Shown here: positions 1-15,357 of the stretch, piece after piece
How the letters are laid out: each line of letters begins with the position of its first letter
Position numbering within the stretch: position 1 is the first letter of the stretch
From: a virus
DNA: 64,000 bases
Strand: one strand, 5' to 3'
Virus record (IMG/VR): IMGVR_UViG_3300046804_002762
Location: 1-64,000 of that record
Notes under the pieces: model-generated
Database searches by the model: none
What the model saw: the letters and a program-made list of their open reading frames with translations, nothing else
What the model was told of the DNA's origin: nothing
Position numbers and translations under genes: made by a program

Positions 1-288
1 CAACAACTCTAGGTTCTGGAGTAGTTAATTCATCTCTAACTTCTGTTGGTACTTTATCGGGTGGTCTCAATATTGCTTCAGGACAGACTTATAAGATTAA
101 TAGCGTTAATGTTCTTGATGCAACAACTCTAGGTTCTGGAGTAGTTAATTCATCTCTAACTTCAGTTGGTACTTTATCGGGTGGTCTCAATATTGCTTCA
201 GGACAGACTTATAAGATTAATAGCGTTAATGTTCTTGATGCAACAACTCTAGGTTCTGGAGTAGTTAATTCATCTCTAACTTCCGTTG
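1..288 (+). repeat. 120-bp tandem repeat within the fibre gene
   Basis: The units start at 1, 121 and 241. The first two are almost base-identical and the third matches for about 48 bases before diverging. Each unit encodes 40 residues (TTLGSGVVNSSLTSVGTLSG and onward), so unit changes keep the frame. More copies may lie upstream of the window. Confidence 0.9.
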
Positions 289-923
289 GAACATTAAATT
301 CATTAAATGTCTCAGGAACCGCAACATTTGCTGGAATTACTACAGTTACTGGTACAACATTATTTGCAAAACAACTAAACGTTTCTGGAGTTTCTACTGC
401 AGGTTCTTTTATAAAATCTGGAGGAACCTCAAGTCAATTCTTGAAAGCAGATGGTTCCGTAGATAGTAATACTTATTTAACTTCCTCTTCAACATCTGTA
501 ACTGATGATATCTCAACAGATGCTACCAGATACCTTACATTTACAAGTTCCACATCTGGATCTATCTCTGGTGTAAATGTTTCTTCAACAAATCTCCAAT
601 ATAATCCACTATCTGGAAATCTAGCAGCAACTCAATTTACATCTCTATCTGATGCTGCACAAAAAACTAATGTAAGGCCGATAGAAAATCCAATTGAAAT
701 TACAAAACAACTTGATGGAGTTAGGTTTGATTGGATAAATAACAATAAACCTTCACTTGGTTTGATTGCTCAAGAAGTTGAAAAAGTTCTTCCAGAACTC
801 GTTGAGACCAATAGTGATGGTATTAAGTCAGTAAGTTACTCTAATATGGTTGGTCTTTTAATTGAAGCAATCAAAGAACAACAAGTTCGTATTGAAGAAC
901 TGGAGAGAAAGTTAAATGCCTAA
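1..923 (+). CDS. Tail fibre protein, C-terminal part with S74 chaperone domain (5' partial)
   Basis: The reading frame is open from base 3 and runs off the left edge. The visible N-terminal part is made of 40-residue repeats rich in Ser, Thr, Gly and Asn, followed by a fibre-like stretch. The last ~90 residues look like a peptidase S74 intramolecular chaperone: SLSDAAQKTNVRPIENP, then GLIAQEVEKVLPELV and a terminal coiled coil ending EELERKL. In known S74 fibres this domain trimerises the fibre and then cleaves itself off just before the conserved serine, here probably the S of TSLSDAAQK. A separate protein starting at 441 is unlikely because the upstream frame is continuous. It overlaps the next gene by 8 bases. 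Confidence 0.85.
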   Translation, partial: TTLGSGVVNSSLTSVGTLSGGLNIASGQTYKINSVNVLDATTLGSGVVNSSLTSVGTLSGGLNIASGQTYKINSVNVLDATTLGSGVVNSSLTSVGTLNSLNVSGTATFAGITTVTGTTLFAKQLNVSGVSTAGSFIKSGGTSSQFLKADGSVDSNTYLTSSSTSVTDDISTDATRYLTFTSSTSGSISGVNVSSTNLQYNPLSGNLAATQFTSLSDAAQKTNVRPIENPIEITKQLDGVRFDWINNNKPSLGLIAQEVEKVLPELVETNSDGIKSVSYSNMVGLLIEAIKEQQVRIEELERKLNA

Positions 924-2106
924 TCAGTTTTTATCACCAGAAGGAGATTTAGAAAACTATTTTGTAAGTGAGTATTGGTTAATTGACCAGTATATTGGCG
1001 ATGCTTTATGGATTTTGGGTTCTGGAGCTAATGGAAGACTTGGTAACGGAGCAACAACAGGTAACATAAGTACTCCAGTCACAACATTTGCTGGGGGAAC
1101 TAATTGGAAACAAGTAAGTTGTGCAAATGGACATACAGCAGCAATCAAAACTGATGGAACTCTATGGACTTGGGGTACTGGATCTAATGGAAGACTCGGA
1201 AACGCACAAGTAACCAATGTATCCACTCCAATCACCACATTTGCTGGAGGAACCAACTGGAAACAAGTAAGTGGTGGAAATATCCATACAGCAGTAATCA
1301 AAACTGATGGAACCTTATGGATTTGGGGTAATGGATATAATGGAAGATTAGGAAATGCATCAACAACCAATGTATCCACTCCAATCACCACATTTGCCGG
1401 AGGAACTAACTGGAAACAAGTAAGTTCTGGAGGTTATCATACAGCAGCAATCAAAACTGATGGAACTTTATGGATTTGGGGAAGTGGATCTGGTGGAAAA
1501 CTTGGAAATAACACAACAGTCGATACATCCACTCCAATCACCACATTTGCAGGAGGAAACAACTGGAAACAAGTCAGTTGTGGAATTTTTCATACATCAG
1601 CAATTAAAACCGATGGAACCTTATGGGCTTGGGGTTCTGGATCAGTCGGACAACTTGGAAACGCGGAAGCATTAGGAAGCACTAAATTTACTCCAGTCAC
1701 CACATTTGCTGGAGGAACTAATTGGAAACAAGTAAGTTCTGGAGATAATCATACGGCAGCAATCAAAACTGATGGAACCTTATGGACTTGGGGAAGTGGA
1801 TCTAGTGGAAAACTTGGAAATAGCACAACAGGCGATAGATCCACTCCAATCACCACATTTGCAGGAGGAAACAACTGGAAACAAGTATGTGCTGGAGATA
1901 CTCATACATCAGCAATTAAAACCGATGGAACCTTATGGACTTGGGGTGGTGGTGCTTTTGGACAACTTGGAAACGCGGCAACGAGTAATAGATTAACTCC
2001 ATCCACCATATTTGTTGGAGAAACTAATTGGAAACAAGTTGATTGTGGATATAGGAATACAGTAGCAGTCCAAGCAGGTATCAACGCCGAGTACCCACTC
2101 TCATAA
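916..2106 (+). CDS. RCC1-like seven-bladed propeller protein 1
   Basis: A 396-residue protein. After a ~33-residue unique N-terminus (MPNQFLSPEGDLENYFVSEY) it consists of seven ~52-residue repeats of the type WTWGxGxxGxLGN ... TPxTTFAGGxNWKQVxxGxxHTAAIKTDGTL. Seven WG-LGN motifs and seven NWKQV motifs are present, which fits one closed RCC1/BLIP-II type beta-propeller. It sits directly after an S74 fibre and before a DUF4376 protein, so a virion adhesin or receptor-binding role is inferred. The residues between NWKQV and the HTAAIK strand vary most between blades. The end overlaps the late promoter at 2102. Confidence 0.8.
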   Translation: MPNQFLSPEGDLENYFVSEYWLIDQYIGDALWILGSGANGRLGNGATTGNISTPVTTFAGGTNWKQVSCANGHTAAIKTDGTLWTWGTGSNGRLGNAQVTNVSTPITTFAGGTNWKQVSGGNIHTAVIKTDGTLWIWGNGYNGRLGNASTTNVSTPITTFAGGTNWKQVSSGGYHTAAIKTDGTLWIWGSGSGGKLGNNTTVDTSTPITTFAGGNNWKQVSCGIFHTSAIKTDGTLWAWGSGSVGQLGNAEALGSTKFTPVTTFAGGTNWKQVSSGDNHTAAIKTDGTLWTWGSGSSGKLGNSTTGDRSTPITTFAGGNNWKQVCAGDTHTSAIKTDGTLWTWGGGAFGQLGNAATSNRLTPSTIFVGETNWKQVDCGYRNTVAVQAGINAEYPLS

Positions 2107-2110
2107 ATAC
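2102..2110 (+). promoter_or_regulatory. Late promoter, CATAAATAC
   Basis: It matches the T4-like cyanophage late consensus (ATAAATAC) and lies 14 bases before the start at 2124. It overlaps the stop region of the preceding gene, as is common in these phages. Confidence 0.7.
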
Positions 2111-2123
2111 TTAAAAAACGATA

Positions 2124-2798
2124 ATGGAAATAGCACTCATTCATAACAACTCATTAGAACTTGGTCCTTTCGGGATGAATGTTCATTATATCAATCAAGA
2201 GTTAGAAGAACTTGAAGTAGAAGAACGCATATCTCCACAAAGTTTTTCCCAACTCCCCATTCATTTTAGTGATGGACTTACTCATCTTCTTCCAACCGAA
2301 AGAGTGATTCCAGAGAATGATCCAAAGTATCAAAATGTAGGAGATTTTAGTTGGGAAATTATTGAAGAAGATGGTGTTCCCGTAAAGGTTGTATTCACTC
2401 ACGAAGTTGCTGATAAGACTTTAGAAGAAGTCAAAGCAACTCGTAAGCAAGAAGTTGCTCCAGCAAGAAAACAAAAAGAAAATACTGTTACCACTCTTAC
2501 AGTCAATAATACTGAAGTAGAAGTATCAACCTCAAGAGAAGAAAGATTGATGCTTGCAAGTAAACTTTCAGCATCTCCTGGGCCTCATAACTTTAAGTTC
2601 CAAAATACTTGGTTAGAGATTACTACAGAAGAACTTCAGTATATTGTAAGTGAAGTTGATAAAGTAGTTCAAGAAGCATTTGATTGGGAGTTAGCAAAAC
2701 TTCAAGAGATTGATGCTTGTGAGACAATTGATGAGGTTTATGATGTTGTGATTGTAGAGCAACCAGAACTAGAAACCCCTCAATTACCAGTAGAGTGA
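2124..2798 (+). CDS. DUF4376-type tail fibre assembly-like protein
   Basis: A 224-residue protein. Residues ~105-210 carry the DUF4376 pattern: an Arg/Lys-rich helix (ATRKQEVAPARKQ), a small beta unit (TVNNTEVEVSTSREERLML), an aromatic strand (FQNTWLEITTEELQYI) and a helical end. Proteins with this domain are found beside phage tail fibres and are thought to help fibre assembly or form fibre tips. It lies between two RCC1 propeller genes and is driven by the late promoter at 2102. Confidence 0.7.
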   Translation: MEIALIHNNSLELGPFGMNVHYINQELEELEVEERISPQSFSQLPIHFSDGLTHLLPTERVIPENDPKYQNVGDFSWEIIEEDGVPVKVVFTHEVADKTLEEVKATRKQEVAPARKQKENTVTTLTVNNTEVEVSTSREERLMLASKLSASPGPHNFKFQNTWLEITTEELQYIVSEVDKVVQEAFDWELAKLQEIDACETIDEVYDVVIVEQPELETPQLPVE

Positions 2799-2799
2799 A

Positions 2800-4026
2800 A
2801 TGAGTAGAGTAGAAACAACCACTAACTTTAGAGATAGTCTTGGTGTTGATTTAGGTAGAAAGTTAGTCACCAAAGACTATCTCATTAGTGTTTATCCAGA
2901 AATTGGAGATAAGATTGGTATTCCTCCAGAACTGTGGATTTGGGGTAGTGGAAGTAACGGAAAACTTGGAAACGCAGTAACAACCGATATATCCACACCA
3001 GTCACCACATTTGCCGGAGGAACCAATTGGAAACAAGTTTCTTCTAATGGAAATTCTCATACAGCAGCAATCAAAACTGATGGAACCTTATGGACTTGGG
3101 GTAGTGGGGATAGTGGACAAATTGGAAACAACTCAACAACCACCGTATCTACTCCAGTCACCACATTTGCCGGAGGAACCAATTGGAAACAAGTTTCTAA
3201 TGGAAATTCTCATACAGCAGCAATCAAAACTGATGGAACCTTATGGACTTGGGGAGATGGATCTAACGGAAGACTTGGAAATGCATCAACATCCGGTGCA
3301 TCCACTCCAGTCACCACATTTGCTGGAGGAAATAATTGGAAACAAGTAAGTTTTGGAACTGCTCATATAGCAGCAATCAAAACTGATGGAACCCTATGGA
3401 CTTGGGGTAGTGGAAGTAATGGACAACTTGGAAACGCAGTAACAACAGGTAACATAAGCACTCCAGTTACCACATTTGCCGGTGGAACCAACTGGAAACA
3501 AGTGAGTGGAGGTGATATCACAGCAGCAATCAAAACTGATGGAACCTTATGGACTTGGGGTAGTGCAAGTAGCGGAAAACTTGGAAATGCAGTAATAACA
3601 GGTAACATAAGTACTCCAATCACAACATTTGCTGGAGGAAACAACTGGAAACAAGTTGCTTGTGGAAGTATACATATGGCAGCAATCAAGACTGATGGAA
3701 CATTATGGGTTTGGGGTCTTGGAAGTTATGGAAAACTTGGAAACGGAGCAACAACAGGTAATATATCCACTCCAGTCACCACATTTGTTGGAGGAACCAA
3801 CTGGAAACAAGTTTCTAATGGAAATTCTAATACAGCAGCAATCAAGACTGATGGAACATTATGGGCTTGGGGCAGTGGAAGTAATGGAAGACTTGGAAAC
3901 GCAGTAACAACAGGTAACATAAGCACTCCAGTCACCACATTTGCTGGAGGAAATAATTGGAAACAAGTAAGTTTTGGAACTGTCCATACAACAGCAATAC
4001 AATCAGTAGATTTCTCACCATTCTAA
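2800..4026 (+). CDS. RCC1-like seven-bladed propeller protein 2
   Basis: A 408-residue paralogue of the protein at 916 with a different ~45-residue N-terminus (MSRVETTTNFRDSLGVDLGR, ending PELWIWG). Seven WxWGxGxxGxLGN units are present, so this is again one full propeller. The repeats are similar to those of the first copy at DNA level, which suggests gene conversion among copies. It starts one base after the stop of the DUF4376 gene, in the same transcription unit. Confidence 0.8.
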   Translation: MSRVETTTNFRDSLGVDLGRKLVTKDYLISVYPEIGDKIGIPPELWIWGSGSNGKLGNAVTTDISTPVTTFAGGTNWKQVSSNGNSHTAAIKTDGTLWTWGSGDSGQIGNNSTTTVSTPVTTFAGGTNWKQVSNGNSHTAAIKTDGTLWTWGDGSNGRLGNASTSGASTPVTTFAGGNNWKQVSFGTAHIAAIKTDGTLWTWGSGSNGQLGNAVTTGNISTPVTTFAGGTNWKQVSGGDITAAIKTDGTLWTWGSASSGKLGNAVITGNISTPITTFAGGNNWKQVACGSIHMAAIKTDGTLWVWGLGSYGKLGNGATTGNISTPVTTFVGGTNWKQVSNGNSNTAAIKTDGTLWAWGSGSNGRLGNAVTTGNISTPVTTFAGGNNWKQVSFGTVHTTAIQSVDFSPF

Positions 4027-4033
4027 TAAATAC
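4024..4033 (+). promoter_or_regulatory. Late promoter, TAATAAATAC
   Basis: A late promoter-like string at the stop of the second propeller gene, 24 bases before the start at 4058. It probably drives the 4058-7618 glycosylation unit. Confidence 0.65.
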
Positions 4034-4057
4034 CTCAAGATACATTTAATATTCTTT

Positions 4058-5398
4058 ATGAACCCTCTTGAGTTGGTCACAAAAACTCTATACTCCTTCA
4101 ACGAAAAAGAACTTACAGCACAAGTTCTTCAGGCATTTGGAAAAAGAGCAGAAACCTTTGAGCAACACAATGATGTTGCTAAAATTTTCTTTGAGATAAA
4201 AGATTTCTCAAATGCTATTACTTATGGCGAGAAAGCACTTAAGTTAGCAAGGTCAAAAGAAGAAAAATATACAACAGCAAAGAACCTGATTAATGCTTAT
4301 AATCAAAATAATTATCCGGAAAAAGCAATAACTCAAATAACAAAAATAAAATCACAAAATCCACAAGATACTGAACTTCTTCTTGAGGAAACTTTTTCAT
4401 ATTCTGCTCTCAATCAAAAAGAGAAATCAGAAAAACTTTTATTTGACCTAATTAAAAAAAGACTACCAGAAGAGATTGAAAGAAAAGCATATCATAATCT
4501 ATCCGGACATTATTTCAGGAAGGATGATATTCATACAGGACTTCAGCACTTTCTCAAAGCAGGAGAAGTAGAAGCATATAAGAATAGAAAACTTCCAGAG
4601 TATGAGAAATGGGATGGTACAGTAACTCCAGGAAGAACTGTAATTATTGATAATCAGTGTGGTGCTGGTGATGAAGTGATTCATATCAGGTTTATGAAGC
4701 ATATTAAAAAACTTGGAATGAAACCAGTCTGGACAACAACACGAAGAGACCTACAAAAAATCTTCCAATACAACGGGTTTGAAGTTGAATGTGTTTGGGA
4801 TAAACCAGAACTACCAAAGGATACTTGCTGGGTTTATGCTCTTGCTCTTCCTTATTATCTCAATCTCAAAGTAGAAGATTTAGGACAAACTCCTTACCTC
4901 AAACCACTACCACAGAAAGAAGAACAATATTCATATCTACAAGAAGATAAGAACTATAAGATTGGTACATTCTGGAACTCTGGTTCTGGATTTGAACAGG
5001 CACATTTCCGTTCAATTGATGCTGATGATTTATTCAAAGTTCTATCAAAAACTAATTCATCATTATATTCACTTCAACTACCAGACCAAACACCACCAGA
5101 AGGTTATGATGTAAAAACTTTTGATATTCCAAATCGTGATTTTACTGATACATTTTCACTTGTATCTCAAATGGACTTGGTGATTACTTCTTGTACTTCT
5201 ATTGCTCATATAGCAGCATCACAAGGTAAAGAAGTCTGCGTATTTGTACCGATTATGGAGTACTATGTTTGGACAAGTTCAACAGGAAAATCTTGGTGGT
5301 ATGGAGATAATGTTCATCTCTTTAAGCAAAAGAAACCAAGAAATTGGGACGAACCTTTGAAGCAATTGAAGGAGTTTCTAAATGATAGAGGAGTATAA
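4058..5398 (+). CDS. TPR and GT9-like glycosyltransferase fusion
   Basis: A 446-residue protein. The N-terminal ~180 residues are helical repeats of TPR type (FFEIKDFSNAITYGEKALKL, LINAYNQNNYPEKAITQI). The C-terminal half resembles a GT-B heptosyltransferase-like fold: VIIDNQCGAGDEVIHIRFM near the start of the domain, and DLVITSCTSIAHIAASQGK before VCVFVP near the end, which is the usual acceptor/donor loop region of GT9 enzymes. It is predicted to transfer a sugar to a protein or glycan. It is the first gene of a tightly overlapped unit and shares 17 bases with the next gene. Confidence 0.7.
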   Translation: MNPLELVTKTLYSFNEKELTAQVLQAFGKRAETFEQHNDVAKIFFEIKDFSNAITYGEKALKLARSKEEKYTTAKNLINAYNQNNYPEKAITQITKIKSQNPQDTELLLEETFSYSALNQKEKSEKLLFDLIKKRLPEEIERKAYHNLSGHYFRKDDIHTGLQHFLKAGEVEAYKNRKLPEYEKWDGTVTPGRTVIIDNQCGAGDEVIHIRFMKHIKKLGMKPVWTTTRRDLQKIFQYNGFEVECVWDKPELPKDTCWVYALALPYYLNLKVEDLGQTPYLKPLPQKEEQYSYLQEDKNYKIGTFWNSGSGFEQAHFRSIDADDLFKVLSKTNSSLYSLQLPDQTPPEGYDVKTFDIPNRDFTDTFSLVSQMDLVITSCTSIAHIAASQGKEVCVFVPIMEYYVWTSSTGKSWWYGDNVHLFKQKKPRNWDEPLKQLKEFLNDRGV

Positions 5399-5840
5399 CC
5401 TTTCTTTTCTCAATCTAAATATCATTAAGAACAAACTTCTTGAAATAGAAACCAGTTCTCACGGACTTGTAACCAAAGGTGTTTCCACTTATAATTATGG
5501 AATGCCTATTTTAATGTATCCAGAACTGACTGGATTGAAGAATGTACTTAAGCAATATATTAGATTATATTGTAATAAGTATGAGATTCCACCTTTAAAG
5601 TTTATCAACAGTTGGTTTAATATTTCACAATCAGGTAATAAACTTAAGGCACATAAGCACGAAGAAAGTATTGTAAGTGGAGCATTTTATATTTCTGGAA
5701 AGACTCCTTTAATATTTCCAGAGACCTCAATCAATCCTTATCCCGGTCTGTTAGTTATTTTCTCAAGTGATTTGATTCACTATACTGAAGAAGAAACTGA
5801 AGAACGAATTATTATTAGTTTTAATACAGATTACCTATGA
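5382..5840 (+). CDS. 2OG-Fe(II) oxygenase family protein
   Basis: A 152-residue protein with the layout of the small putative 2-oxoglutarate/iron oxygenases common in cyanophages. The iron-binding part is HKHEESIVSGAFYISG (His and Glu candidates near residue 88), followed by GLLVIFSSDLIHYTEE (second His) and ERIIISFNTDYL (the Arg usually binds 2-oxoglutarate). Such enzymes hydroxylate proteins or small molecules. Its place inside a glycosyltransferase run suggests it may create hydroxylated residues or modify sugars; this is inference. Confidence 0.7.
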   Translation: MIEEYNLSFLNLNIIKNKLLEIETSSHGLVTKGVSTYNYGMPILMYPELTGLKNVLKQYIRLYCNKYEIPPLKFINSWFNISQSGNKLKAHKHEESIVSGAFYISGKTPLIFPETSINPYPGLLVIFSSDLIHYTEEETEERIIISFNTDYL

Positions 5841-6625
5841 AATTTTTATTTTTGGTTGGTTCGGCACTCAAGCATTTTCAAGAAGAAAAGTTTAGTGCTT
5901 ATGATGAACAACAAAGATTTGAACAAACATTAAAGACGATTGAATGTATAAGAGAAAAAGTACCAAATTCTTATGTCGTTTTATTTGAATGTTCTTCTAA
6001 ACTAATTGATGAGAAGCAAAAAGATACACTTAAAGAAAAAGCAGATTTGTTTTTAGAATTTTATAATGAACCAGTACTCAAACAAATCTATGAAAACCTT
6101 GAAGAAAGACCAGAACTGATTACTTATGGCAAATCATTATTAGAAACCAGAGGATTGTTGAATGCTCTTTATGTAATCAAGAAACACAATCTTTTTAGTG
6201 ATAGTCAAAGAGTATTCAAACTGACTGGAAGATACTTGTTGAATGAGTATTTTGATATTAAAGATTACGAATCAAAGTTTCTTGAGGAAAAATATGTAAT
6301 CAAAAAGTATGATTATCTTTCACAAGAAGCAGAAAATTTTGATGATAAAGAACTTGAAAATGTTTATGCTTATCTTTATGGAGCTCAAGGTATGATGGTA
6401 ACTGGTCTATGGTCTTTTGACCGTATGCTTTTTAATGAAATTGTTGAGTCACTTGAGAAAGCATTTGTTTATATGGAAAAGATGCTCCAATTTACATCAG
6501 GTACTGATGTTGAACACTCACTTTATCGGTTCTTAAACAAAAAGAACATAATCAGTATTCCAAATCTTGGTCTCACTACAATTAAAGGAATGAGTGGTGA
6601 AAATGGTGCAAGTTATCAAATATGA
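5837..6625 (+). CDS. Putative glycosyltransferase-like protein
   Basis: 262 residues. A beta-alpha start (MKFLFLVGSALKHF) and the string RVFKLTGRYLLNEYFD, which resembles the KxTGRY segment seen in some GT-A-like phage and bacterial glycan proteins. No clear DxD motif is visible. It overlaps both neighbours by 4 bases (ATGA), so it is translated with the glycosylation unit. The function is inferred mainly from context. Confidence 0.55.
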   Translation: MKFLFLVGSALKHFQEEKFSAYDEQQRFEQTLKTIECIREKVPNSYVVLFECSSKLIDEKQKDTLKEKADLFLEFYNEPVLKQIYENLEERPELITYGKSLLETRGLLNALYVIKKHNLFSDSQRVFKLTGRYLLNEYFDIKDYESKFLEEKYVIKKYDYLSQEAENFDDKELENVYAYLYGAQGMMVTGLWSFDRMLFNEIVESLEKAFVYMEKMLQFTSGTDVEHSLYRFLNKKNIISIPNLGLTTIKGMSGENGASYQI

Positions 6626-7275
6626 AAATAGCAATCTTTTATCATATAGCACAAATGGGTTTGGGTGCTTTTATATATCAACAGCAAATTCATAGACTTT
6701 ATACTTCAGGATTAATCAAAGAAGCATCTCATATTCATTTTGGAGTGAATGGAAACCAAGAACTTTTTAATGTTCCTGATAAGGCAACTATAAATATCAA
6801 TCAAAACTGGAAAGAAGAAACAGATACTTTGGTTTCTTTAAGAGATTTTTGTAAACAAAATCCAGATTATAAAGTTCTTTATTTTCACACAAAAGGTATA
6901 TCTCAACACTGCCTAAATGGAGAGAGTTGGAGACTGATGATGGAATATTTTGTGATTGATAAATGGAAAGAGTGTGTAGATTATTTAAATGAATATGATA
7001 GTGTTGGAAGTAATCTTAAAATCTTAGGACCAACAACTTGGAGTGATGGTAGACAATCGTGGGAAAAAGCAGGAACTCAACATTTTGTAGGAAACTTTTG
7101 GTGGGCAAATGCTTCTTATGTAAATACTTTAGATGATGAGTTTTTGAAGAGTGATTTTAGATTAGACAGAGAATTTTGGATTGGTACTGGAAATGGTAAA
7201 ATGAAATCTTTATATCAACCAGAAGACCACGAACCTTATACATATTTTTATCAGGAGAAGGATTATGTTTCGTGA
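6622..7275 (+). CDS. Putative glycosyltransferase (HTKG-type)
   Basis: 217 residues. Contains YFHTKGISQH, a WRLMMEYF helix, GPTTW and HFVGNFWWANASYV. This HTKG ... GNFWWA arrangement recalls RgpF/DUF616-like glycosyltransferase relatives found in cyanophage and bacterial polysaccharide clusters. ATGA overlap with the preceding gene and a short overlap with the next. The substrate is unknown. Confidence 0.55.
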   Translation: MKIAIFYHIAQMGLGAFIYQQQIHRLYTSGLIKEASHIHFGVNGNQELFNVPDKATININQNWKEETDTLVSLRDFCKQNPDYKVLYFHTKGISQHCLNGESWRLMMEYFVIDKWKECVDYLNEYDSVGSNLKILGPTTWSDGRQSWEKAGTQHFVGNFWWANASYVNTLDDEFLKSDFRLDREFWIGTGNGKMKSLYQPEDHEPYTYFYQEKDYVS

Positions 7276-7618
7276 ATGTGGAGAATGTACTGCTTGCTGT
7301 TCTTGGTTGATTGGTGATGCTTTTGGATGGAAGTTTGGAGCAGGAAAATCTTGTAAGTTCTTGGAATGTAATGGATGTGGTGTTCATAAAGGACGACCAG
7401 AATCTTGTAGAGATTATCAATGTGCTTGGTCTCAATATTTACTTCCAGAAGAAATGAGACCTGATAAGTGTAATGTATTGGTTTCTGTGGAACAAAATGA
7501 GAATGGTCAATATTTAAAGGCATTAGCAATAAATAGTAAAGAAGTAACAAGTGATGTTAAACAATACCTTCAAAAGTGGAGTGAAAGTATGAACACTCCT
7601 GTGATTTTTATAGAGTAA
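7265..7618 (+). CDS. YkgJ-like cysteine-cluster metal-binding protein
   Basis: 117 residues with a CGECTACC (CxxCxxCC) cluster at residues ~5-12, further Cys at CKFLECNGCGVH, and RPESCRDYQCAW. This is the pattern of the YkgJ family of putative zinc or iron-sulfur binding proteins. In bacteria such proteins can sit beside modification enzymes. Here it ends the 4058-7618 unit of sugar enzymes, so a cofactor or redox role for that unit is possible but unproven. Confidence 0.75.
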   Translation: MFRECGECTACCSWLIGDAFGWKFGAGKSCKFLECNGCGVHKGRPESCRDYQCAWSQYLLPEEMRPDKCNVLVSVEQNENGQYLKALAINSKEVTSDVKQYLQKWSESMNTPVIFIE

Positions 7619-7640
7619 AAGTCGTTTCCAAGAATTTCAA

Positions 7641-9077
7641 ATGCCTACTTTTTATAACTTTAGAGAAAACGGACTTGATTATAGTTTTGATGATGTCTTT
7701 GTACCTGCGGACTTATTTCGTGATGGGAACTTATGGACTTGGGGTTATGGAGGTAGTGGACGACTAGGAAACGCAACAATAACCAGTGCATCCACTCCAG
7801 TCACTACATTTTCCGGAGGAACCAATTGGAAACAAGTATATATTACAACTAATCTTAGCACAGCAATCAAGACCGATGGTACTTTATGGACCTGGGGCGG
7901 TTCGGGTAATGGGAGACTTGGAAATGGACAAACAACAGGTACTTTTAGCACTCCAATCACCACATTTGCTGGAGGAACCAATTGGAAACAAGTAAGTTGT
8001 GGAAGTCAATGTGTAGCAGCAATCAAAACCGATGGAACCTTATGGACTTGGGGAGATGGATCTGGTGGAAGACTTGGAAACGCAACAATAACCAGTGCAT
8101 CCACCCCAATAACAACATTCGCAGGAGGAAGCAATTGGAAACAAGTAAATTGTGGTAGTTCTTATATGACAGCAATTAAAACTGATGGAACCTTATGGAC
8201 TTGGGGAGATGGATCTGGTGGAAGACTTGGAAACGCAACAATAACCAGTGCATCCACCCCAATAACAACATTCGCAGGAGGAAGCAATTGGAAACAAGTA
8301 AATTGTGGTAGTTCTTATGTGGCAGCAATCAAGACTGATGGAACCCTATGGGCTTGGGGTAGTGGATCTGGTGGAAAATTGGGAAACGGAGTAACAACAG
8401 GTAACATATCAACTCCAGTCACCACATTTGCTGGAGGAACCAACTGGAAACAAGTTGCTTGTGGAATCAATCATGTAGTAGCAATCAAGACTGATGGAAC
8501 TTTATGGGCTTGGGGAGATAATGATTCTGGGCAATTAGGAGATATTTTAACCGCCTTAAGATTAGGCGATCGAGGTGGATCTATGGCTGCAAGTTCTTCC
8601 GTAGTAACCGGAATAAGCACAACAGGTTTATCTATAGGAGATACACTCGTAACTACTGATCCATCTAATATATTTATCAGTGGATCAACAATAAGTTCTA
8701 TAGGTGTAGGCAGTGTTAATCTTTCTAGTGCAAACATTTCTGCCTATACTGGAGTATTTTCCTTTGCGAGATATTTCCCTCCTATATCTACGCCAATTAC
8801 AACATTTGCTGGGGGAAACAACTGGAAACAAGTAAGTGGTGGAGATTATTACACAGCAGCAGTCAAGACTAATGGAACTTTATGGACTTGGGGGGCTTCT
8901 CATTATGGTCAACTTGGAAATGGATTAAGACAAGGAGTCGGGAGTGTAAATCTTAAAAGAATAACAGATATTAGATCCACTCCAGTCACCACATTTGCTG
9001 GAGGAACCAATTGGAAACAAGTAAGTTGTGCTGATGATAATGCATCAGCACTCACCTACGACGACCCAGTGATCTAA
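7641..9077 (+). CDS. RCC1-like seven-bladed propeller protein 3, with insertion in blade 6
   Basis: 478 residues, with another unique N-terminus (MPTFYNFRENGLDYSFDD). Seven WG-LGN/LGD units are present. Blades 3 and 4 are nearly identical in DNA. Blade 6 (WAWGDNDSGQLGD) is followed by a ~75-residue Ser/Thr/Gly-rich insertion (about residues 297-375) before the propeller resumes at STPITTFAGG. The insertion could form an extra loop domain on one face. No promoter is obvious just upstream; the late promoter for the next unit overlaps its stop. Confidence 0.8.
   Translation: MPTFYNFRENGLDYSFDDVFVPADLFRDGNLWTWGYGGSGRLGNATITSASTPVTTFSGGTNWKQVYITTNLSTAIKTDGTLWTWGGSGNGRLGNGQTTGTFSTPITTFAGGTNWKQVSCGSQCVAAIKTDGTLWTWGDGSGGRLGNATITSASTPITTFAGGSNWKQVNCGSSYMTAIKTDGTLWTWGDGSGGRLGNATITSASTPITTFAGGSNWKQVNCGSSYVAAIKTDGTLWAWGSGSGGKLGNGVTTGNISTPVTTFAGGTNWKQVACGINHVVAIKTDGTLWAWGDNDSGQLGDILTALRLGDRGGSMAASSSVVTGISTTGLSIGDTLVTTDPSNIFISGSTISSIGVGSVNLSSANISAYTGVFSFARYFPPISTPITTFAGGNNWKQVSGGDYYTAAVKTNGTLWTWGASHYGQLGNGLRQGVGSVNLKRITDIRSTPVTTFAGGTNWKQVSCADDNASALTYDDPVI
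8038..8345 (+). repeat. Nearly identical adjacent propeller blades (156-bp unit)
   Basis: Bases ~8041-8190 and ~8197-8346 encode consecutive blades that differ at only a few positions, for example Y-M-T versus Y-V-A after GSS. The rest of the gene's blades differ far more, which points to a recent duplication or conversion event. Confidence 0.8.
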
Positions 9078-9081
9078 ATAC
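9074..9081 (+). promoter_or_regulatory. Late promoter, CTAAATAC
   Basis: An exact cyanophage late-promoter string. It overlaps the stop codon of the third propeller gene and lies 22 bases before the sulfotransferase start. It probably drives 9103-15212. Confidence 0.75.
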
Positions 9082-9102
9082 TCATAACAACTGAAAAACA
9101 CT

Positions 9103-9885
9103 ATGAAGACTTTGTATTTTCTTGGAGGACTTCCAAGAAGTGGTTCTACATTATTAGGGTCACTTCTCAATCAACATCCAGACATTTATGTTTCTCCTAC
9201 ATCTCCACTAGGTGATGTAGTGACTGATATAGAAAAAATATTCAATAAAGTAGACCAACAGTTTACTTTTGACCGAAAAGCAATATCTTATAATGTTTAT
9301 AAAGCAGTTCTTGCTAACTTTTACAATCATATTCCAAAATCAACAATTCTAGATAAGCATCGGTTTTGGGGGAAGAACCTAGATACAGTTCAAATGTTTC
9401 TTTCCAACAAACCAAAAATTATAGCAACTTATCGTTCTATTCCAGAAGTTCTTACATCTTATATTTCTCTCATAGAACGGTCTAAGCACGAAGATAATTT
9501 TATTGATAATCATTTAAGAACAGATAATCTTCCAATCACAAATAATAATCGTGCTGAATATATTTGGAGATATTATGTTTCTCCATCTTATGAGAGTATG
9601 GTGTACGGTCTTACAAAATATCCAGACTGGGTTCATCTGGTAGAATATAATAGTCTTGTAGAAAATCCAGAAGCAGAGTTAAATAAAATTTATGAGTTTC
9701 TAGAGATTCCTTATCATACAAATACCTTTAATAATATTGATAATGCTTGTGGAGAACAGAAAGATGATGCTTGGGGATTAAAAGGTCTTCACGATATTCG
9801 TCCAAATCTATCTAAAATCTCACAAAATCCTATTGATGTAATAGGAGAAGAAAATGTAAAACTTTATTCCAAGTTTGATTTATGA
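9103..9885 (+). CDS. Sulfotransferase family protein
   Basis: 260 residues. The N-terminus has the PAPS 5'-phosphosulfate loop, GLPRSGSTLLGSLLNQHP, followed by the usual helix. A likely 3'-phosphate motif is YRSIPEVLTSYISLIERS near residue 110-130, and WGKNLDTVQMF precedes it. The length fits a minimal bacterial sulfotransferase domain. It probably moves sulfate from PAPS to a glycan or protein. It opens a late operon of sugar enzymes, so sulfation of a virion or tail glycan is the simplest idea. Confidence 0.8.
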   Translation: MKTLYFLGGLPRSGSTLLGSLLNQHPDIYVSPTSPLGDVVTDIEKIFNKVDQQFTFDRKAISYNVYKAVLANFYNHIPKSTILDKHRFWGKNLDTVQMFLSNKPKIIATYRSIPEVLTSYISLIERSKHEDNFIDNHLRTDNLPITNNNRAEYIWRYYVSPSYESMVYGLTKYPDWVHLVEYNSLVENPEAELNKIYEFLEIPYHTNTFNNIDNACGEQKDDAWGLKGLHDIRPNLSKISQNPIDVIGEENVKLYSKFDL

Positions 9886-10691
9886 AAACTCATTTGTTAG
9901 TGGTTCTTCAGTCTCATTCAAAAGGCAATAGAGAAACCGATGAAAATCATAAAAGATATTGTAATGCTCCAAAGATTGAAGTATCTTCAAGATGTATATT
10001 TTCTGTAATTGATGCTTTGAATTATGCTCAAGAACAATATCCAGATTATGAAATAGAACTCCAAATTTTTGATGACCACTCAGACCAAGAGTTTCTGGAT
10101 ATTCTTCAACGACTTATTGATACTACAAAGTTCAAAGTCAACCTAACTCATATTGAAACTTATGGCATAATGCCTTCTATACTTCGTTGCTATGAGCACG
10201 GCAGAGATTGTGGGAAGGATTGGGTGTATTTTATTCAAGATGATTTTCTTCACCAACAAAATTCTATTGAGTTGATGATACATGCGATTAATCAATTTAG
10301 TTGTAATTTGGGACAGCCCGTTAGTATTTTCCCATTTAACAAACCGGCAGAATATCATGATCCAGTAAATACTGCTGTTCCTTGCAATCTTGTGGTTGGA
10401 AAAGATCGTTATTGGAGAACTAATATACATGTTGCAGTTACTTTAATGACTCATGTTAATGTTATAAAAAACAATTGGGATTTATTTTATAAGATGGGGA
10501 CCAGCGAGGTTAGTGATAGTATGGAAATGGATAGTATTTGTAAAATCTATTATGAAAAAGGATACTACTGTTTTACACCTATTCCATCATTAGCACTGCA
10601 TATGCAGACAGAATGGGATAAGGACTTTTTTATTGATTGGAAATCTTGGTGGAATGAATATGATTTGGAGAAATTAAATGAAAAAAATTGA
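9882..10691 (+). CDS. GT2-like glycosyltransferase
   Basis: 269 residues. It starts with a beta strand (THLLVVLQSHS), has an IFDDHSDQEFLDIL segment like the nucleotide-sugar pocket of GT-A enzymes, and WVYFIQDDFLHQ, which places a DD (DxD-like) metal site near residue 118. It overlaps its neighbours by 4 and 14 bases. The acceptor is unknown. Confidence 0.65.
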   Translation: MKTHLLVVLQSHSKGNRETDENHKRYCNAPKIEVSSRCIFSVIDALNYAQEQYPDYEIELQIFDDHSDQEFLDILQRLIDTTKFKVNLTHIETYGIMPSILRCYEHGRDCGKDWVYFIQDDFLHQQNSIELMIHAINQFSCNLGQPVSIFPFNKPAEYHDPVNTAVPCNLVVGKDRYWRTNIHVAVTLMTHVNVIKNNWDLFYKMGTSEVSDSMEMDSICKIYYEKGYYCFTPIPSLALHMQTEWDKDFFIDWKSWWNEYDLEKLNEKN

Positions 10692-11376
10692 AGTATTTTT
10701 AAGACATTGTTATTATTCAAAAATTCAAGAAGCACCAGGAAAACAGAGACCTGAGTGGTGGGATAAAGAAAAGGTATTTCAGAACTTTAAGAGTACTCTT
10801 AATCCAGAAACTACAAACTACACAATTATCTACGATAAACATTATGGGGAAAGAAAGGATACTTTCCTTAAAGATGAGAAAAATGTCTATGAAATAGATT
10901 GTGGTAAAGAATCTCAAAGTTTTATCCAAACTTTGAATTATATTCTTTCTCAAGATTTAGATGATGATGTGATTGTTTATTTTTTAGAGGATGACTATGT
11001 TCATCGTCCAGGATGGGATAAAGTTTTAATTGATGGATTTAGTCTTCCTGTAGAATACGTAACTCTTTATGATCATGGAGATAAGTATCAAGAGATGTAT
11101 AAAGACTTTATGACTAAAGTTCTTCATACAAAATTATCTCACTGGATGCCCGTTCCATCTACAACTAATACCTTTGCTACCAAATTTAAGACATTAAAGG
11201 AAGATAAAAATATTCATATCAAATATTCTTTAAGTTATGAGCCAACCTATGATCACGGTAAATTTTTGGAACTACATAGTAACAGAAGAACTTTGATTTC
11301 TTGTATTCCTGGTTATTCCACACATTGCGAATCAAATTTATTATCACCTTGTATTGATTGGAAAAATTACTTATGA
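10678..11376 (+). CDS. GT-A-like glycosyltransferase
   Basis: 232 residues with VIVYFLEDDYVHRPGWDKVL around residues 98-117, a typical GT-A metal-binding EDD region followed by an aromatic-Pro-Gly segment, and a C-terminal HCESN stretch. The overlap with the next gene is ATGA. Similar in layout to the previous gene, so they may act in sequence on one glycan. Confidence 0.6.
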   Translation: MKKIEVFLRHCYYSKIQEAPGKQRPEWWDKEKVFQNFKSTLNPETTNYTIIYDKHYGERKDTFLKDEKNVYEIDCGKESQSFIQTLNYILSQDLDDDVIVYFLEDDYVHRPGWDKVLIDGFSLPVEYVTLYDHGDKYQEMYKDFMTKVLHTKLSHWMPVPSTTNTFATKFKTLKEDKNIHIKYSLSYEPTYDHGKFLELHSNRRTLISCIPGYSTHCESNLLSPCIDWKNYL

Positions 11377-13505
11377 ATTGGAAAGATGTTTCTGGATTTT
11401 TTGATTCAGATTTAGTCTATAAATTAGCAACAAAAACATTTCCAGAAGGATCTACCTTTGTAGAGATTGGATCCTGGATGGGAAGGTCTACTTGCTGTCT
11501 AGGTCAATTAATCAAAGATTCTAAAAAAGACATTAAGGTTTATGCAGTAGATACATTTGAGGGTAGTGAAGAGCACGGAGAATTATTAAAGGAAATTAGA
11601 GAACACTCAACTTCATTATTAGAAATTTTTAAAGGTCATACATCTTTATGTGGTGTTGATCATCTTATCACTCCAATCAAAGGAGCAAGTCTTGATGTTG
11701 TAAATCAATTTGAAGATCAGAGTATTGATTTTATTTTTATTGATGCTTCCCATGATTATGCTAATGTATTAGCAGATATTAGTGCTTGGTATCCTAAACT
11801 AAAACCAGGCGGTCTTATTGCTGGTGACGACTATGCTCCATGTTGGGGTGGAGTTATTCAAGCAGTAAATGAATATTTTACTGGTAAAACAGTATTTTTT
11901 CTAAATGGTGCCTTACAATATCCATATTCACAAAAAGTTTGGCATTGGTGTCATTTTAAACAATCAAAGGAGATGAAAAAGATGGATGTAACTCTTTATG
12001 CAATCGCAAAAAATGAGGAAAAAAATGTTGAGCGATTTATTGAAAACTCAAAGAAATTTTCAAAAACAATTGTAGTTGATACGGGAAGTACAGATAATAC
12101 AGTTCAACTTCTTCGTGATGCTGGTATTGAAGTTTACGAACATCCTCAGACCAGGGAAGAATTTGATTTTTCTGCAGCAAGAAATCAAGCACTTTCCTAT
12201 GCGGAAACTGATTGGGCTTTTTCTCTAGACTTTAATGAAGATTTGGAAGACTTTTTTCCAGATGGTCTAGAAGTTGTTGCTGGAGAGTTTACTACATTTA
12301 ATCATGAACGATATGATAAAGTTGATGATAAAGAACCAACATTAGGACAAGCATCTCATACTCGTTTTCATAGAACTAAGAACTATGCTTGGGTGAATGC
12401 AGTTCACGAAACTCCAACGTTCATTCCAACAGAAGATTATCTAAACGAAGTTGCAGTTGATACAACTATTAAAATTACAAAGAATGTTCATAATACTGTA
12501 GACAAAGAACTTTTTTACCTGTCTATCTGTGAAAGAGAATTTAATAAGGATCAAACTAATACTTATTTTCTTTGGTTTATTTTCAAACATTATTTCAATG
12601 TTAAGAATATTCAAAAAGTAATTGAATTTGGTCAGCATTATTTGAATATTTCCAAACCTTATTTTGATCCAATGAGGATTGATGTTTTTATTATGACTAG
12701 CATCTCTTTAATCAGTTCTGGAGATATTCAAAAAGCATCTAATTATGCTTTCCATGCACTCAGTGAAGCAATGAATATTGGTGGAGAAATTATTGGTAAA
12801 GCATTTACTCATTTGCTGAATATTGGAAAATTAACACAAAATCCAAATATTATCGTATTTGCAACGGCATTTAATCCAGATACACTAAGACTTCCAGAAA
12901 GAACAGAATCAATTGATAAGTTGTTCTTAACTAATTTGGACGATACTCCAACTACTGCTTGGATGGGACATCGTAATTTTGCAGAGTGGATTGTAAAACA
13001 ACTGAATCCAGAAGTAATTGTAGATCTTGGAGTTGACTGGGGTTATTCTACATTCTCATTTGCTATTCCAAGAATTGGAAAGGTATATGGTATTGATAAT
13101 TTCTCAGGTGATGATTTTATTGGAACAGTAGATTCTTATCCTTTCGTAACCATGAAGAGAGATAAGTTACACCTTCAAGATAATATTGAATTCATCAAGG
13201 GTGATTTTAATGAAGTGGTAAAAACATGGGATAAGAAGATTGATATTCTTCACATTGATGGAAGTCACCATTATGAAGATGTCAAAAAAGATTTTGAAAA
13301 TTGGAGTAAATTTGTAAATGATGATGGCGTAATTCTACTTCACGATACTGCTATTGAAGATTATGATGGAAAATTCTATGGTGTTAAAAAATTCTTTGAT
13401 GAAATTGATTTACCAAAATGTACCTTTACCCACTCCTTCGGACTTGGTGTAATTTCTAAGAATGAAAAACTAATTGAATTGATTAAGAATACTTTTAATC
13501 TATGA
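11373..13505 (+). CDS. Methyltransferase-glycosyltransferase-methyltransferase fusion
   Basis: 710 residues from the ATG at 11373 (a TTG 15 bases upstream is less likely because ATGA coupling is present). Domain 1 (residues ~20-190) is a class I SAM methyltransferase: FVEIGSWMGRSTCCLGQL, YAVDTFEG, DFIFIDASHDYANV, LKPGGLIAGDDY. Domain 2 (~205-330) is a GT2 domain: LYAIAKNEEKNVERFI, VVDTGSTDNTVQLL, FDFSAARNQALS. Domain 3 (~540-700) is a second SAM methyltransferase: VDLGVDWGYSTFSFA, YGIDNFSG, DILHIDGSHHYEDV. The fusion probably builds and O-methylates a sugar. The middle ~200 residues are helical with no clear family. Confidence 0.8.
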   Translation: MNWKDVSGFFDSDLVYKLATKTFPEGSTFVEIGSWMGRSTCCLGQLIKDSKKDIKVYAVDTFEGSEEHGELLKEIREHSTSLLEIFKGHTSLCGVDHLITPIKGASLDVVNQFEDQSIDFIFIDASHDYANVLADISAWYPKLKPGGLIAGDDYAPCWGGVIQAVNEYFTGKTVFFLNGALQYPYSQKVWHWCHFKQSKEMKKMDVTLYAIAKNEEKNVERFIENSKKFSKTIVVDTGSTDNTVQLLRDAGIEVYEHPQTREEFDFSAARNQALSYAETDWAFSLDFNEDLEDFFPDGLEVVAGEFTTFNHERYDKVDDKEPTLGQASHTRFHRTKNYAWVNAVHETPTFIPTEDYLNEVAVDTTIKITKNVHNTVDKELFYLSICEREFNKDQTNTYFLWFIFKHYFNVKNIQKVIEFGQHYLNISKPYFDPMRIDVFIMTSISLISSGDIQKASNYAFHALSEAMNIGGEIIGKAFTHLLNIGKLTQNPNIIVFATAFNPDTLRLPERTESIDKLFLTNLDDTPTTAWMGHRNFAEWIVKQLNPEVIVDLGVDWGYSTFSFAIPRIGKVYGIDNFSGDDFIGTVDSYPFVTMKRDKLHLQDNIEFIKGDFNEVVKTWDKKIDILHIDGSHHYEDVKKDFENWSKFVNDDGVILLHDTAIEDYDGKFYGVKKFFDEIDLPKCTFTHSFGLGVISKNEKLIELIKNTFNL

Positions 13506-14092
13506 AGGTAGTTCAAATAGGTTCTAATAAAGGAAACGATGATCTATCAGAATACTTACTATCCAATTATGAACAGTTAGACTTTGGATTGTTTGTAGAA
13601 GCAATACCATTACACACAACAGAACTAAAAAAATGCTATTCAAAGTACAATAATATTTTTGTAGAAAATGTTGTTGTTAAGTCTCCACACTATGAAAAGG
13701 ATGAAATAAAATTTTATTTTCTAACAAGTAATAAACCAGATTATGGAATTTCATCCTGCTCAAAAGAGCACATAGAACAACATATTAGAGATATACCTCA
13801 TTTATCGGGTGGTAAAATTTTAGAATTTAATTTACCACGTATAACTATGGAAAATCTTTTAGACAAATACAGCATTGAGTCTTTAGATTTATTGGCACTT
13901 GATGCGGAGGGTATTGAATCTGATATTCTCTTAAATTTTAACTGGGAAAAATATGATATTAAGAGAGTTCAATTTGAATATATTCACTTAAAGGAAAAAA
14001 CTAATACTGTTAAGGATATGTTCCTTAATATGGGATATAGACAAGTTAAACCTATAGATAGATTTAATTTTGATTGGGCATTTGAAAAATGA
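13502..14092 (+). CDS. FkbM-family methyltransferase
   Basis: 196 residues. The N-terminal VVQIGSNKGNDDLSEYL is the SAM-binding loop, followed by FVEAIPLHTTELKKCY and ITMENLLDKYSIESLDLLAL, then DAEGIESDILLNF, all in the order expected for FkbM methyltransferases, which O-methylate sugars and related groups. It overlaps the preceding gene by 4 bases. Confidence 0.8.
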   Translation: MKVVQIGSNKGNDDLSEYLLSNYEQLDFGLFVEAIPLHTTELKKCYSKYNNIFVENVVVKSPHYEKDEIKFYFLTSNKPDYGISSCSKEHIEQHIRDIPHLSGGKILEFNLPRITMENLLDKYSIESLDLLALDAEGIESDILLNFNWEKYDIKRVQFEYIHLKEKTNTVKDMFLNMGYRQVKPIDRFNFDWAFEK

Positions 14093-14859
14093 AGATTGTA
14101 ATTGAAAAAGGATTGTGGGAAACTGACTTCTTACTAAATGAAATTTTACCTAAAGGAGAAGTTTCTCATAATCTAAATGATGCTGCTGATGTTTTTATTT
14201 TTGCATCAAGGGCACACACATATAATGAGATATTATCAATAGTCCAAAAAACAAAACCAAAAATTATAATTTGCCTTTCTGATGAATTGATTGTAGAAAA
14301 TCTACAGCAGTTCAATCAGTTAGGCAATTATTGTGATTTATTTTTAAGGCAATATCATCATCCTCAATACACCTATACGTCAAACACAATTCACATTCCT
14401 CTTGGATATACAAATGGATGTAAAGTGTTTCAAGAACCAAAGGAATTAAATTGGTCTTTTCTTGGAGAAATCAAAACAGACCGACAAGAAATGATTGATA
14501 CATTCAGAAGTATTCCAAAACACTTTGTTGGTAAGTCTTTGTCCAAAGATTTAATGTGCAAGATATACTCTAAATCCATATTTGTTCCTTGCGGACGTGG
14601 TAATTCATCATTAGATTGTTTTAGACTTTACGAAGCATCTATGAATGGATCTATTCCCGTTCTTGTTGGTTCTCAAGATGAAATAGAATGCACTTTTAAG
14701 TATGAAGAAAATCCACCATGGATATTTGCAGAGACTTGGAAAGATGCATTAGATAAATGCGAATCACTACTAGAAAGACCAATAGATAATACACCAGTTT
14801 TGAATTGGTGGAAGAGTAGAATTGATAAGATTAAATCTAAAGTATTAGAGGTACTATGA
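14089..14859 (+). CDS. Exostosin-like (GT47-type) glycosyltransferase
   Basis: 256 residues. The C-terminal half reads FVPCGRGNSSLDCFRLYEAS, then MNGSIPVLVG, which is the donor-binding signature of exostosin-like enzymes (a glycine-rich turn, then R-x-x-E-A ... G-x-x-P-V). An earlier IHIPLGYTNG and WSFLGEIKTDRQEM fit the same fold. It overlaps both neighbours by 4 bases. Confidence 0.7.
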   Translation: MKIVIEKGLWETDFLLNEILPKGEVSHNLNDAADVFIFASRAHTYNEILSIVQKTKPKIIICLSDELIVENLQQFNQLGNYCDLFLRQYHHPQYTYTSNTIHIPLGYTNGCKVFQEPKELNWSFLGEIKTDRQEMIDTFRSIPKHFVGKSLSKDLMCKIYSKSIFVPCGRGNSSLDCFRLYEASMNGSIPVLVGSQDEIECTFKYEENPPWIFAETWKDALDKCESLLERPIDNTPVLNWWKSRIDKIKSKVLEVL

Positions 14860-15212
14860 AAATTACAATTCCCATTTCTGTAGGTGAACTTTTAGATAAG
14901 ATTACTATCTTGGAAATCAAATCTATGTTCACGGATGATAAGTATGTTTTAAAAGAATTAGAAGCATTAAATTTAATCAAAAGCACTCTAACTCAATATA
15001 CTTTAGAGTATGAAGTTCAACTTAAGAAAGTAAATGAAAAACTTTGGAAAATAGAAGATAAGTTAAGAAAGTTGGAGCAAGAGCAAAGATTTGATAATGA
15101 ATTTATTGAACTTGCTAGAAGTGTTTATAAAATTAATGATGAAAGAGCAAGAATAAAAAGAGAAATTAATGAATTGTGCAATTCTGATTATAGAGAAGTA
15201 AAGGTATACTAA
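14856..15212 (+). CDS. DUF6165 family protein
   Basis: 118 residues, beginning ISVGELLDKITILEIKS and containing NEKLWKIEDKLRKLEQEQ and ELARSVYKINDERARIKR, mostly helical coiled coil. This matches a small family usually found beside glycosyltransferase genes in phages and bacteria; its role is unknown. It is the last gene of the 9103-15212 unit. A late promoter overlaps its stop codon. Confidence 0.75.
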   Translation: MKITIPISVGELLDKITILEIKSMFTDDKYVLKELEALNLIKSTLTQYTLEYEVQLKKVNEKLWKIEDKLRKLEQEQRFDNEFIELARSVYKINDERARIKREINELCNSDYREVKVY

Positions 15213-15231: not shown

Positions 15232-15357
15232 ATTGGCGTGCGAGGTGAAAATTATTTTGGGGGAAGAATATCACAAACACAAATATACAACAGAGCACTG
15301 ACAGCATTAGAAATTCAACAAAACTTCAATGCAAATCGTGGAAGGTTTGGCATCTAA
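15232..15357 (+). pseudogene. C-terminal remnant of a LamG/concanavalin-like tail fibre gene
   Basis: The frame from 15232 encodes 41 residues with YNRALTALEIQQNFNANRG and a terminal RFGI before the stop. This ending is typical of LamG (concanavalin A-like lectin) domains of cyanophage fibres. There is no start codon upstream in this frame, so this looks like the tail left by a deletion. The late promoter at 15209 supports a former structural gene. Confidence 0.65.

Follow-up and report, generated by a model that had tools for sequence, protein, structure and literature searches.

Known phage and bacterial systems for glycan modification

Glycosyltransferases of aquatic T4-like phages have so far been read as tools for changing the host surface. 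In pelagimyophages and cyanomyophages, a large variable island termed the host recognition cluster (HRC), located between VrlC and gp14, contains tail fibre genes, several glycosyltransferases and rfaE; its enzymes are interpreted as modifiers of the host O-chain, and the main text of that report includes neither sulfotransferases nor methyltransferases (PMC7029224). Here we describe an island of adhesin and enzyme genes at positions 441–15212 of a 64,000-nucleotide window, the whole stretch of DNA that was analyzed, which corresponds to bases 1–64000 of the 95,680-base IMG/VR record IMGVR_UViG_3300046804_002762. The record derives from a T4-like cyanophage, a virus of freshwater cyanobacteria, with a large terminase 87% identical to that of Synechococcus phage S-SCSM1 and 82–87% identical to those of other T4-like cyanophages. 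The island comprises the end of an S74 fibre gene, three seven-repeat RCC1 propellers, a DUF4376 gene and about 12 tightly overlapping enzyme genes. Like the HRC, it is variable and combines tail fibres with glycosyltransferases, but here an adhesin–transferase pair can be identified as a conserved unit. The pair consists of an RCC1 propeller gene followed by the gene for a predicted glycosyltransferase with a tetratricopeptide repeat (TPR) domain, hereafter TPR-GT. With respect to the position of the HRC, neck-like genes lie downstream of the pair in phage BUCT-ZZ01 and in contig L364, and in phage S-SRM01 the pair comes after baseplate wedge and distal fibre genes; VrlC was not located.

Two further systems are informative. 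Mycobacteriophage glycosyltransferases decorate the phage's own virion, according to Freeman et al. 2023 as cited in PMC12619734 and PMC10877033. There, the C-termini of capsid and tail-tube proteins are modified, whereas at the present locus the candidate targets are putative fibre-tip propellers, and a sulfotransferase and the TPR-GT are added. The likeness is that glycosyltransferase genes adjoin virion genes, with gene overlaps and late motifs that point to co-expression. In the BAHT adhesin heptosyltransferases (TibC-TibA, AAH-AIDA-I), a dedicated cytosolic GT-B enzyme modifies a partner adhesin (PMC4358343). The TPR-GT gene likewise adjoins the gene of its presumptive partner adhesin, but the enzyme has a TPR domain, the adhesin is an RCC1 propeller rather than an autotransporter, and the four-cysteine iron site is not conserved among 11 aligned TPR-GTs, in which only C379 is invariant.

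A predicted glycosyltransferase that follows propeller genes

Enzymes that serve an adhesin are expected to remain linked to it through deep divergence and changing neighbors, and the pairing was examined for this reason. Viral contigs were searched with TPR-GT alone, and a nearby RCC1 gene was then sought with hidden Markov models; since the queries came from RCC1-linked genes, unlinked homologues that are very remote could have escaped this search. Clustering at 90% identity gave 98 TPR-GT clusters, 88 of which were evaluable (at least 2 kb of upstream sequence). An RCC1 gene was present in the locus in 86 of the 88; it lay on the same strand and no more than 2 kb upstream in 78, and within 200 nt in 64, some of the looser cases being second glycosyltransferase copies in the same locus. 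At coarser clustering, the linkage was seen in 30/31 clusters at 60% identity and in 11/11 at 40%. In all, related viral sequences with TPR-GT directly behind a propeller gene number in the hundreds. Most loci that lack RCC1 are truncated by the end of the contig, and in two exceptional clusters the gene immediately preceding TPR-GT is another adhesin-like one: a 2344-aa fibre built on another repeat, which we read as BNR/YCF48-like although Pfam gives only DUF6242 (L281), and a 680-aa Gly-rich protein (L288). Because the exceptions also stand behind adhesin-like genes, TPR-GT appears to follow a fibre-tip adhesin gene, which is usually an RCC1 propeller. Other families of the island are similarly linked: an RCC1 gene shares the locus in 38/38 clusters of the CxxC family, and likewise always for the 6622 and DUF4376 families (proteins without a name are designated here by their start position). 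The RCC1 gene is directly upstream of the DUF4376 gene in all 32 evaluable clusters.

The pair persists to ~25% identity and in differing genomic contexts. Among 50,697 phage records, TPR-GT was found only in S-SRM01, BUCT-ZZ01 (26% identity) and AG-345-E08 (25%), and all three carry RCC1 propellers, which are also the best RCC1 matches. BUCT-ZZ01, with Synechococcus elongatus PCC 7942 as recorded host, has a two-gene module in which the glycosyltransferase begins 48 nt behind the propeller and carries an extra C-terminal half resembling a methyltransferase; the annotation shows no further member of the enzyme set close by. A scan of genome contigs returned only two TPR-GT relatives. One of them is on contig L364, which is assigned to a Bacteroidetes metagenome-assembled genome but looks like a T4-like phage contig, and which also has the pair. 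We found no paper describing the propeller–transferase pair in the open-access literature.

The alignment of 11 TPR-GTs has the invariant residues GxGDE...D...SC...H...W-WY, as expected of a GT9-like GT-B fold; Glyco_transf_9 is matched weakly, at 0.02, in 3 of the 11, and searches by sequence return no solved glycosyltransferase. TPR-GT may thus be a GT9-like GT-B enzyme, mainly by motif.

Conservation of the island among related phages

The preliminary description of this locus, made from the letters of the window, had proposed looking for the same enzyme order in other phages, and the order does recur. In S-SRM01 (NC_070963.1, Kyanoviridae; a Singapore reservoir isolate with Synechococcus KCZYC6 as host), gp334–gp349 reproduce the island with an almost unchanged order and 45–86% protein identity: S74 fibre, RCC1, DUF4376, RCC1, TPR, 2-oxoglutarate (2OG) oxygenase, three genes, CxxC, RCC1 and sulfotransferase, and then a 10678 homologue, a glycosyltransferase–methyltransferase, a DUF6165 homologue and an epimerase. 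It differs from the window in that the 9882 glycosyltransferase, the first methyltransferase domain of the fusion, and the FkbM and RXYLT1-like genes are missing, while a dehydratase/epimerase gene and gp340 are extra. The S-SRM01 counterpart of the fusion is a glycosyltransferase–methyltransferase only, matching fusion residues 209–715. No functional study of this island was found in the literature.

Viral contigs searched with the sulfotransferase gave 47 loci and those searched with propeller b gave 62. Among these ~100 IMG/VR loci, almost every one of sufficient length shows the order seen in the window; its recurrence there and in S-SRM01 indicates that the arrangement is more than chance. 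The core order TPR-2OG-5837-6622-CxxC-RCC1-sulfotransferase-10678-glycosyltransferase/methyltransferase-DUF6165 is kept at 50–90% identity, and the accessory genes (the 9882 glycosyltransferase, first methyltransferase, FkbM, RXYLT1-like protein and epimerase) vary among relatives.

Two observations were made in passing in the relatives. In S-SRM01, a tail fibre gene and an 'adhesin tip complex' gene flank one for a tryptophan halogenase (NC_070963.1 41680-43137; L366), possibly another fibre-modifying enzyme. In the marine virus AG-345-E08 (L123 16182-27047), about seven small genes that read as 2OG-oxygenase-like lie in one RCC1/glycosyltransferase island.

The propellers and their enzymes

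The three RCC1-like propellers and the S74 fibre named in the preliminary description are present (Table 1), with 21 RCC1 repeat matches over the Pfam cut-off across the propellers and full-length RCC1-like domain matches. Each propeller has a short N-terminal anchor of a type conserved among relatives, and the propellers are probably tips or decorations of distal tail fibres. A role as 'regulator of chromosome condensation', as implied by the PHROG label 'DNA, RNA and nucleotide metabolism', was rejected because the genes sit among fibre genes and have these anchors. For PHROG families 7220, 16766 and 4219, the condensation-regulator label looks misleading where phage propellers are fibre-associated. 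Blades of the main clade keep TPVTTFAGGT-NWKQV, with a TPVTTFAGGT edge, and vary in two loop stretches. The conserved Thr cluster of the blades is a candidate acceptor, and its TT pair is not retained in distant lineages.

Most of the enzymes listed in the preliminary description were recovered. The 2OG oxygenase, the sulfotransferase, the methyltransferase–GT2–methyltransferase fusion, the FkbM methyltransferase and DUF6165 each exceed the Pfam cut-off, as does the GT2 domain of 9882. The YkgJ-like assignment of the protein at 7265 agrees with its PHROG family, whereas its Pfam CxxCxxCC match is weak. 'About six' glycosyltransferases is a fair estimate: we count six to seven, of which no more than two exceed the Pfam cut-off. 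The Pfam search gave no useful match over the cut-off for TPR-GT, 5837, 6622 or 10678, and a sequence search of solved structures was equally uninformative for these four; folds were therefore predicted for 5837 and 6622, with S-SRM01 rows excluded from the input. The model of 5837 matches glycogenin, Kre2p and UGGT (E 5e-6, TM ~0.4–0.5). That of 6622 matches, in BFVD, predicted giant-virus proteins named glycosyltransferase (TM 0.68–0.79), and solved structures only at TM ~0.4. On these models, both are putative GT-A-like glycosyltransferases. For 10678 there was no database match, and its glycosyltransferase label comes from the EDD motif.

Table 1 Features of the island and its edges in the window.
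Feature	Position	Strand	Evidence
S74-type distal tail-fibre protein, C-terminal part	1..923	+	Peptidase_S74 7.1e-15 at 441-923; PHROG tail-fibre/baseplate families
RCC1 propeller a, 396 aa	916..2106	+	RCC1 x7; anchor type 'MPNQFLSPEGDLENYFVSEYWLIDQY'; 62% to S-SRM01
Late-promoter-like motif ATAAATAC	2103..2110	+	20 nt 5' of DUF4376 gene
DUF4376 protein, probable fibre-assembly partner	2124..2798	+	PF14301 1.6e-5; PHROG tail fibre
RCC1 propeller b, 408 aa	2800..4026	+	RCC1 repeats; anchor type 'VTKDYLISVYPEIG'
Late-promoter motif TAATAAATA	4024..4032	+	5' of TPR-GT operon; most relatives keep a similar motif there
TPR + GT-B (GT9-like) glycosyltransferase, predicted	4058..5398	+	Weak TPR matches; motifs; pairing with RCC1 genes
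2OG/Fe(II) oxygenase	5382..5840	+	2OG-FeII_Oxy_5 PF13759 1.6e-12; PHROG_81
Putative GT-A glycosyltransferase	5837..6625	+	AlphaFold (AF2) model pLDDT 81; fold matches to GT-A enzymes
Putative GT-A-like glycosyltransferase	6622..7275	+	AlphaFold (AF2) model pLDDT 84; BFVD fold matches
CxxCxxCC/YkgJ-like small metal-binding protein	7265..7618	+	PHROG_9155 7e-20; weak PF03692
RCC1 propeller c, 478 aa	7641..9077	+	RCC1 repeats; insert near residues 305-390; anchor type 'FDDVFVPADLF'
Late-promoter motif CTAAATAC	9074..9081	+	Overlaps stop codon of propeller c
Sulfotransferase dependent on 3'-phosphoadenosine-5'-phosphosulfate (PAPS)	9103..9885	+	Sulfotransfer_3 6.6e-16; invariant PRSGST loop, R111/S119
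GT2-like glycosyltransferase, QDD motif	9882..10691	+	PF00535 8.3e-6; weak match to solved glycosyltransferase
Putative glycosyltransferase, conserved FLEDDYVH (EDD) motif	10678..11376	+	Alignment; weak collinear match to 9882 family
Methyltransferase–GT2–methyltransferase fusion	11373..13505	+	Methyltransf_24 PF13578 7e-47, PF00535 9e-10
FkbM-type methyltransferase, accessory	13502..14092	+	PF05050 4.7e-7
RXYLT1/exostosin-like putative glycosyltransferase, accessory	14089..14859	+	RXYLT1_C PF24785 1.6e-5, below cut-off
DUF6165 protein	14856..15212	+	PF19662 8.8e-12
LamG-like structural protein, orphan C-terminal piece GVRGENYFGGRISQTQIYNRALTALEIQQNFNANRGRFGI	15235..15357	+	No start codon; just 3' of DUF6165 gene

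The closest solved relatives of the sulfotransferase are protein-tyrosine sulfotransferases (1e-8), with a match to TPST1. The PAPS-binding loop is shared and is invariant in the alignment, but SPTSP stands where the tyrosine sulfotransferases have CGEET, whose GEE stretch holds the catalytic Glu. The best NCBIfam match, far below the cut-off, is NoeE, a glycan sulfotransferase. The gene lies directly behind a propeller gene in 24 of 37 evaluable clusters. Sulfotransferases also occur in S-SKS1 and S-SCSM1 away from annotated fibre or RCC1 genes, so that the enzyme alone is not diagnostic.

Genes resembling those for donor supply were seen in two divergent related islands. The islands of L058 and AG-345-E08 both contain genes whose best NCBIfam matches are the HldE heptose kinase and adenylyltransferase (below equivalog cut-offs), together with sugar dehydratase/epimerase genes; beside the HldE-like genes of L058, positions 15473-16264 encode a fusion of an APS-kinase-like domain with one that resembles nicotinamide-nucleotide adenylyltransferases. 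An ADP-heptose-like donor would suit a GT9-like transferase, and PAPS would suit a sulfotransferase. Heptose as the sugar of the window phage itself is unsupported, since the HldE-like genes occur only in these two islands and are absent from its own record, from S-SRM01 and from those main-clade records that were searched.

Gene overlaps and late expression signals

The late-promoter motif TAAATA, reported at 4024 and 9074 in the preliminary description, was confirmed at both positions, and a further one unlisted there was found at 2103. These place TAAATA 20–33 nt 5' of the genes starting at 2124, 4058 and 9103. Across the record, 13 of 129 open reading frames (ORFs) with an ATG start have TAAATA at this distance, versus ~1.3 expected by our own arithmetic, and they include genes of the structural region. 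That all enzyme genes overlap by ATGA proved accurate for 7 of 10 enzyme junctions, which have the exact 4-nt overlap; the other three overlap by 11–17 nt (the fusion was counted from ATG 11373, not from TTG 11358 as in the ORF list). Propeller c lies inside the first enzyme operon, between the CxxC and sulfotransferase genes. These features are consistent with late expression of the enzymes with virion genes, a co-expression suggested by the motifs.

Proposed modification of the phage's own adhesins and alternative explanations

We interpret the island as an adhesin-modification module by which these phages would attach sugars, methyl groups and probably sulfate to their own fibre-tip adhesins, and we assign this interpretation a probability of about 0.6. 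Late in infection, the phage would make its RCC1 propellers alongside cytosolic enzymes dedicated to them. The GT-B enzyme with the TPR domain would recognize the propeller or the adjoining fibre tip and add the first sugar to Ser/Thr side chains; the GT-A/GT2 enzymes would lengthen the glycan, which would be trimmed by the methyltransferases, 2OG oxygenase and sulfotransferase, and the modified adhesin would then be assembled into the virion. That TPR-GT stays with a fibre-tip propeller even in deeply diverged phages suggests that its substrate is the phage's own adhesin. The preliminary description had already proposed a glycan on the phage's own fibres or propellers, and the pairing down to ~25% identity supports the part of this proposal that places the enzymes with the adhesins. 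What we infer is the acceptor, the sugar and the sequence of steps, as well as the location in the virion and the benefit, which might be tuning of receptor binding, protection, or avoidance of adsorption to debris. Evolutionary rates are compatible: propeller bodies have a pN/pS of ~0.6, which shuffling between blades may inflate, versus 0.13–0.26 for the enzymes, and fast propellers with slow enzymes fit recognition modules processed by conserved enzymes.

Several points besides this possible inflation weigh against the interpretation. GT9 membership of TPR-GT comes from weak scores and motifs, and the evidence as a whole is drawn from genes and sequence. The pairing could reflect a shared receptor theme, one host glycan being both altered by the enzyme and bound by the propeller, or the inheritance of an entire host-recognition cassette. 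In unrelated phages (Clostridioides, Brevibacillus, Bacillus), RCC1 proteins occur without a TPR-GT match, and propellers therefore do not always need the enzyme. Donor-supply genes were not found in the window record, S-SRM01 or the main-clade records searched; those phages would use host donors.

The main competitor, which we consider unlikely, though less so than the other alternatives, is that the enzymes modify a host surface glycan (lipopolysaccharide (LPS)/O-chain) late in infection, blocking co-infection by other phages or the sticking of progeny to host debris, and that they adjoin adhesins through a shared receptor theme. This is the published reading of the glycosyltransferase-rich clusters, including rfaE, of pelagimyophages and cyanomyophages (PMC7029224), and the HldE-like and dehydratase/epimerase genes of related islands are typical of LPS sugars. 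Synthesis of a host surface polysaccharide is nevertheless weakened as an explanation because no island protein has a membrane-helix-like hydrophobic segment (maximum 19-residue mean 1.26) and because neither a lipid-carrier transferase (Bac_transf PF02397) nor a flippase (Polysacc_synt PF01943) was found in nine related records, the window record being incomplete. The late-type motifs also argue against it, and TPR-GT stays with a phage-coded propeller across several environments, whereas a host-coded substrate would vary. A hypervariable cargo zone, where recombination gathers propellers and glyco-enzymes with various targets and no common product, would explain why accessory genes come and go and why a LamG remnant lies at the 3' edge, and this phage group is known to have hypervariable regions of tail-fibre genes (PMC7029224). 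It is improbable in view of the core order, kept at 50–90% identity with enzymes under purifying selection, and of a propeller–TPR-GT pair that persists while most other neighbors change.

Direct action of the sulfotransferase and oxygenase on the propeller protein (tyrosine sulfation, residue hydroxylation), with the glycan part separate, would agree with the closest solved relatives of the sulfotransferase and with its frequent place directly behind a propeller gene. We regard this as still less probable: the similarity lies mostly in the PAPS-binding loop, and the best NCBIfam match is the glycan enzyme NoeE. Replacement of the GEE stretch by SPTSP led us to demote tyrosine sulfation as the principal explanation. 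Hypermodification of phage DNA by the glycosyltransferases and methyltransferases was rejected as highly improbable, given the types of gene and the late-type motifs. Part of the fusion carries the PHROGs label 'DNA methyltransferase' and DNA glycosylation is a known use of phage glycosyltransferases, but the 2OG enzyme belongs to PF13759 rather than TET/JBP, no Tet_JBP match was found in the nine records (a search without positive control), and late-type motifs and a placement among fibre genes are unsuited to this role.

Adhesin modification is thus the explanation we prefer. A broader proposal, more doubtful and offered tentatively, is that T4-like cyanophages have a dedicated system of a fibre-tip RCC1 propeller and its cognate TPR-GT, here elaborated to a methylated, sulfated glycan and in relatives perhaps heptose-based with phage-made donors. 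If this is true, we know of no earlier example of a sulfated phage adhesin or of a general adhesin–transferase pair in phages. Cyanophage receptor binding would then depend on a self-made modification, which would change the view of host range in these abundant phages.

Island edges and other features of the window

Since its frame stays open right up to base 1 of the record, only the C-terminal end of the S74 fibre is present; 120-bp tandem repeats occupy positions 1–300 of this gene part. At the opposite edge, the LamG-like piece has ~70% matches elsewhere in relatives and is likely a recombination scar. Outside the island, several spurious minus-strand ORFs at 44653-50945 share the peptide AHTIGTLSRPQSY, which therefore reflects a DNA element repeated between the small genes of the 18–58 kb region. 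Genes that read as GIY-YIG or HNH homing-endonuclease-like were seen among small ORFs at 18226, 31798, 45520 and 53095.

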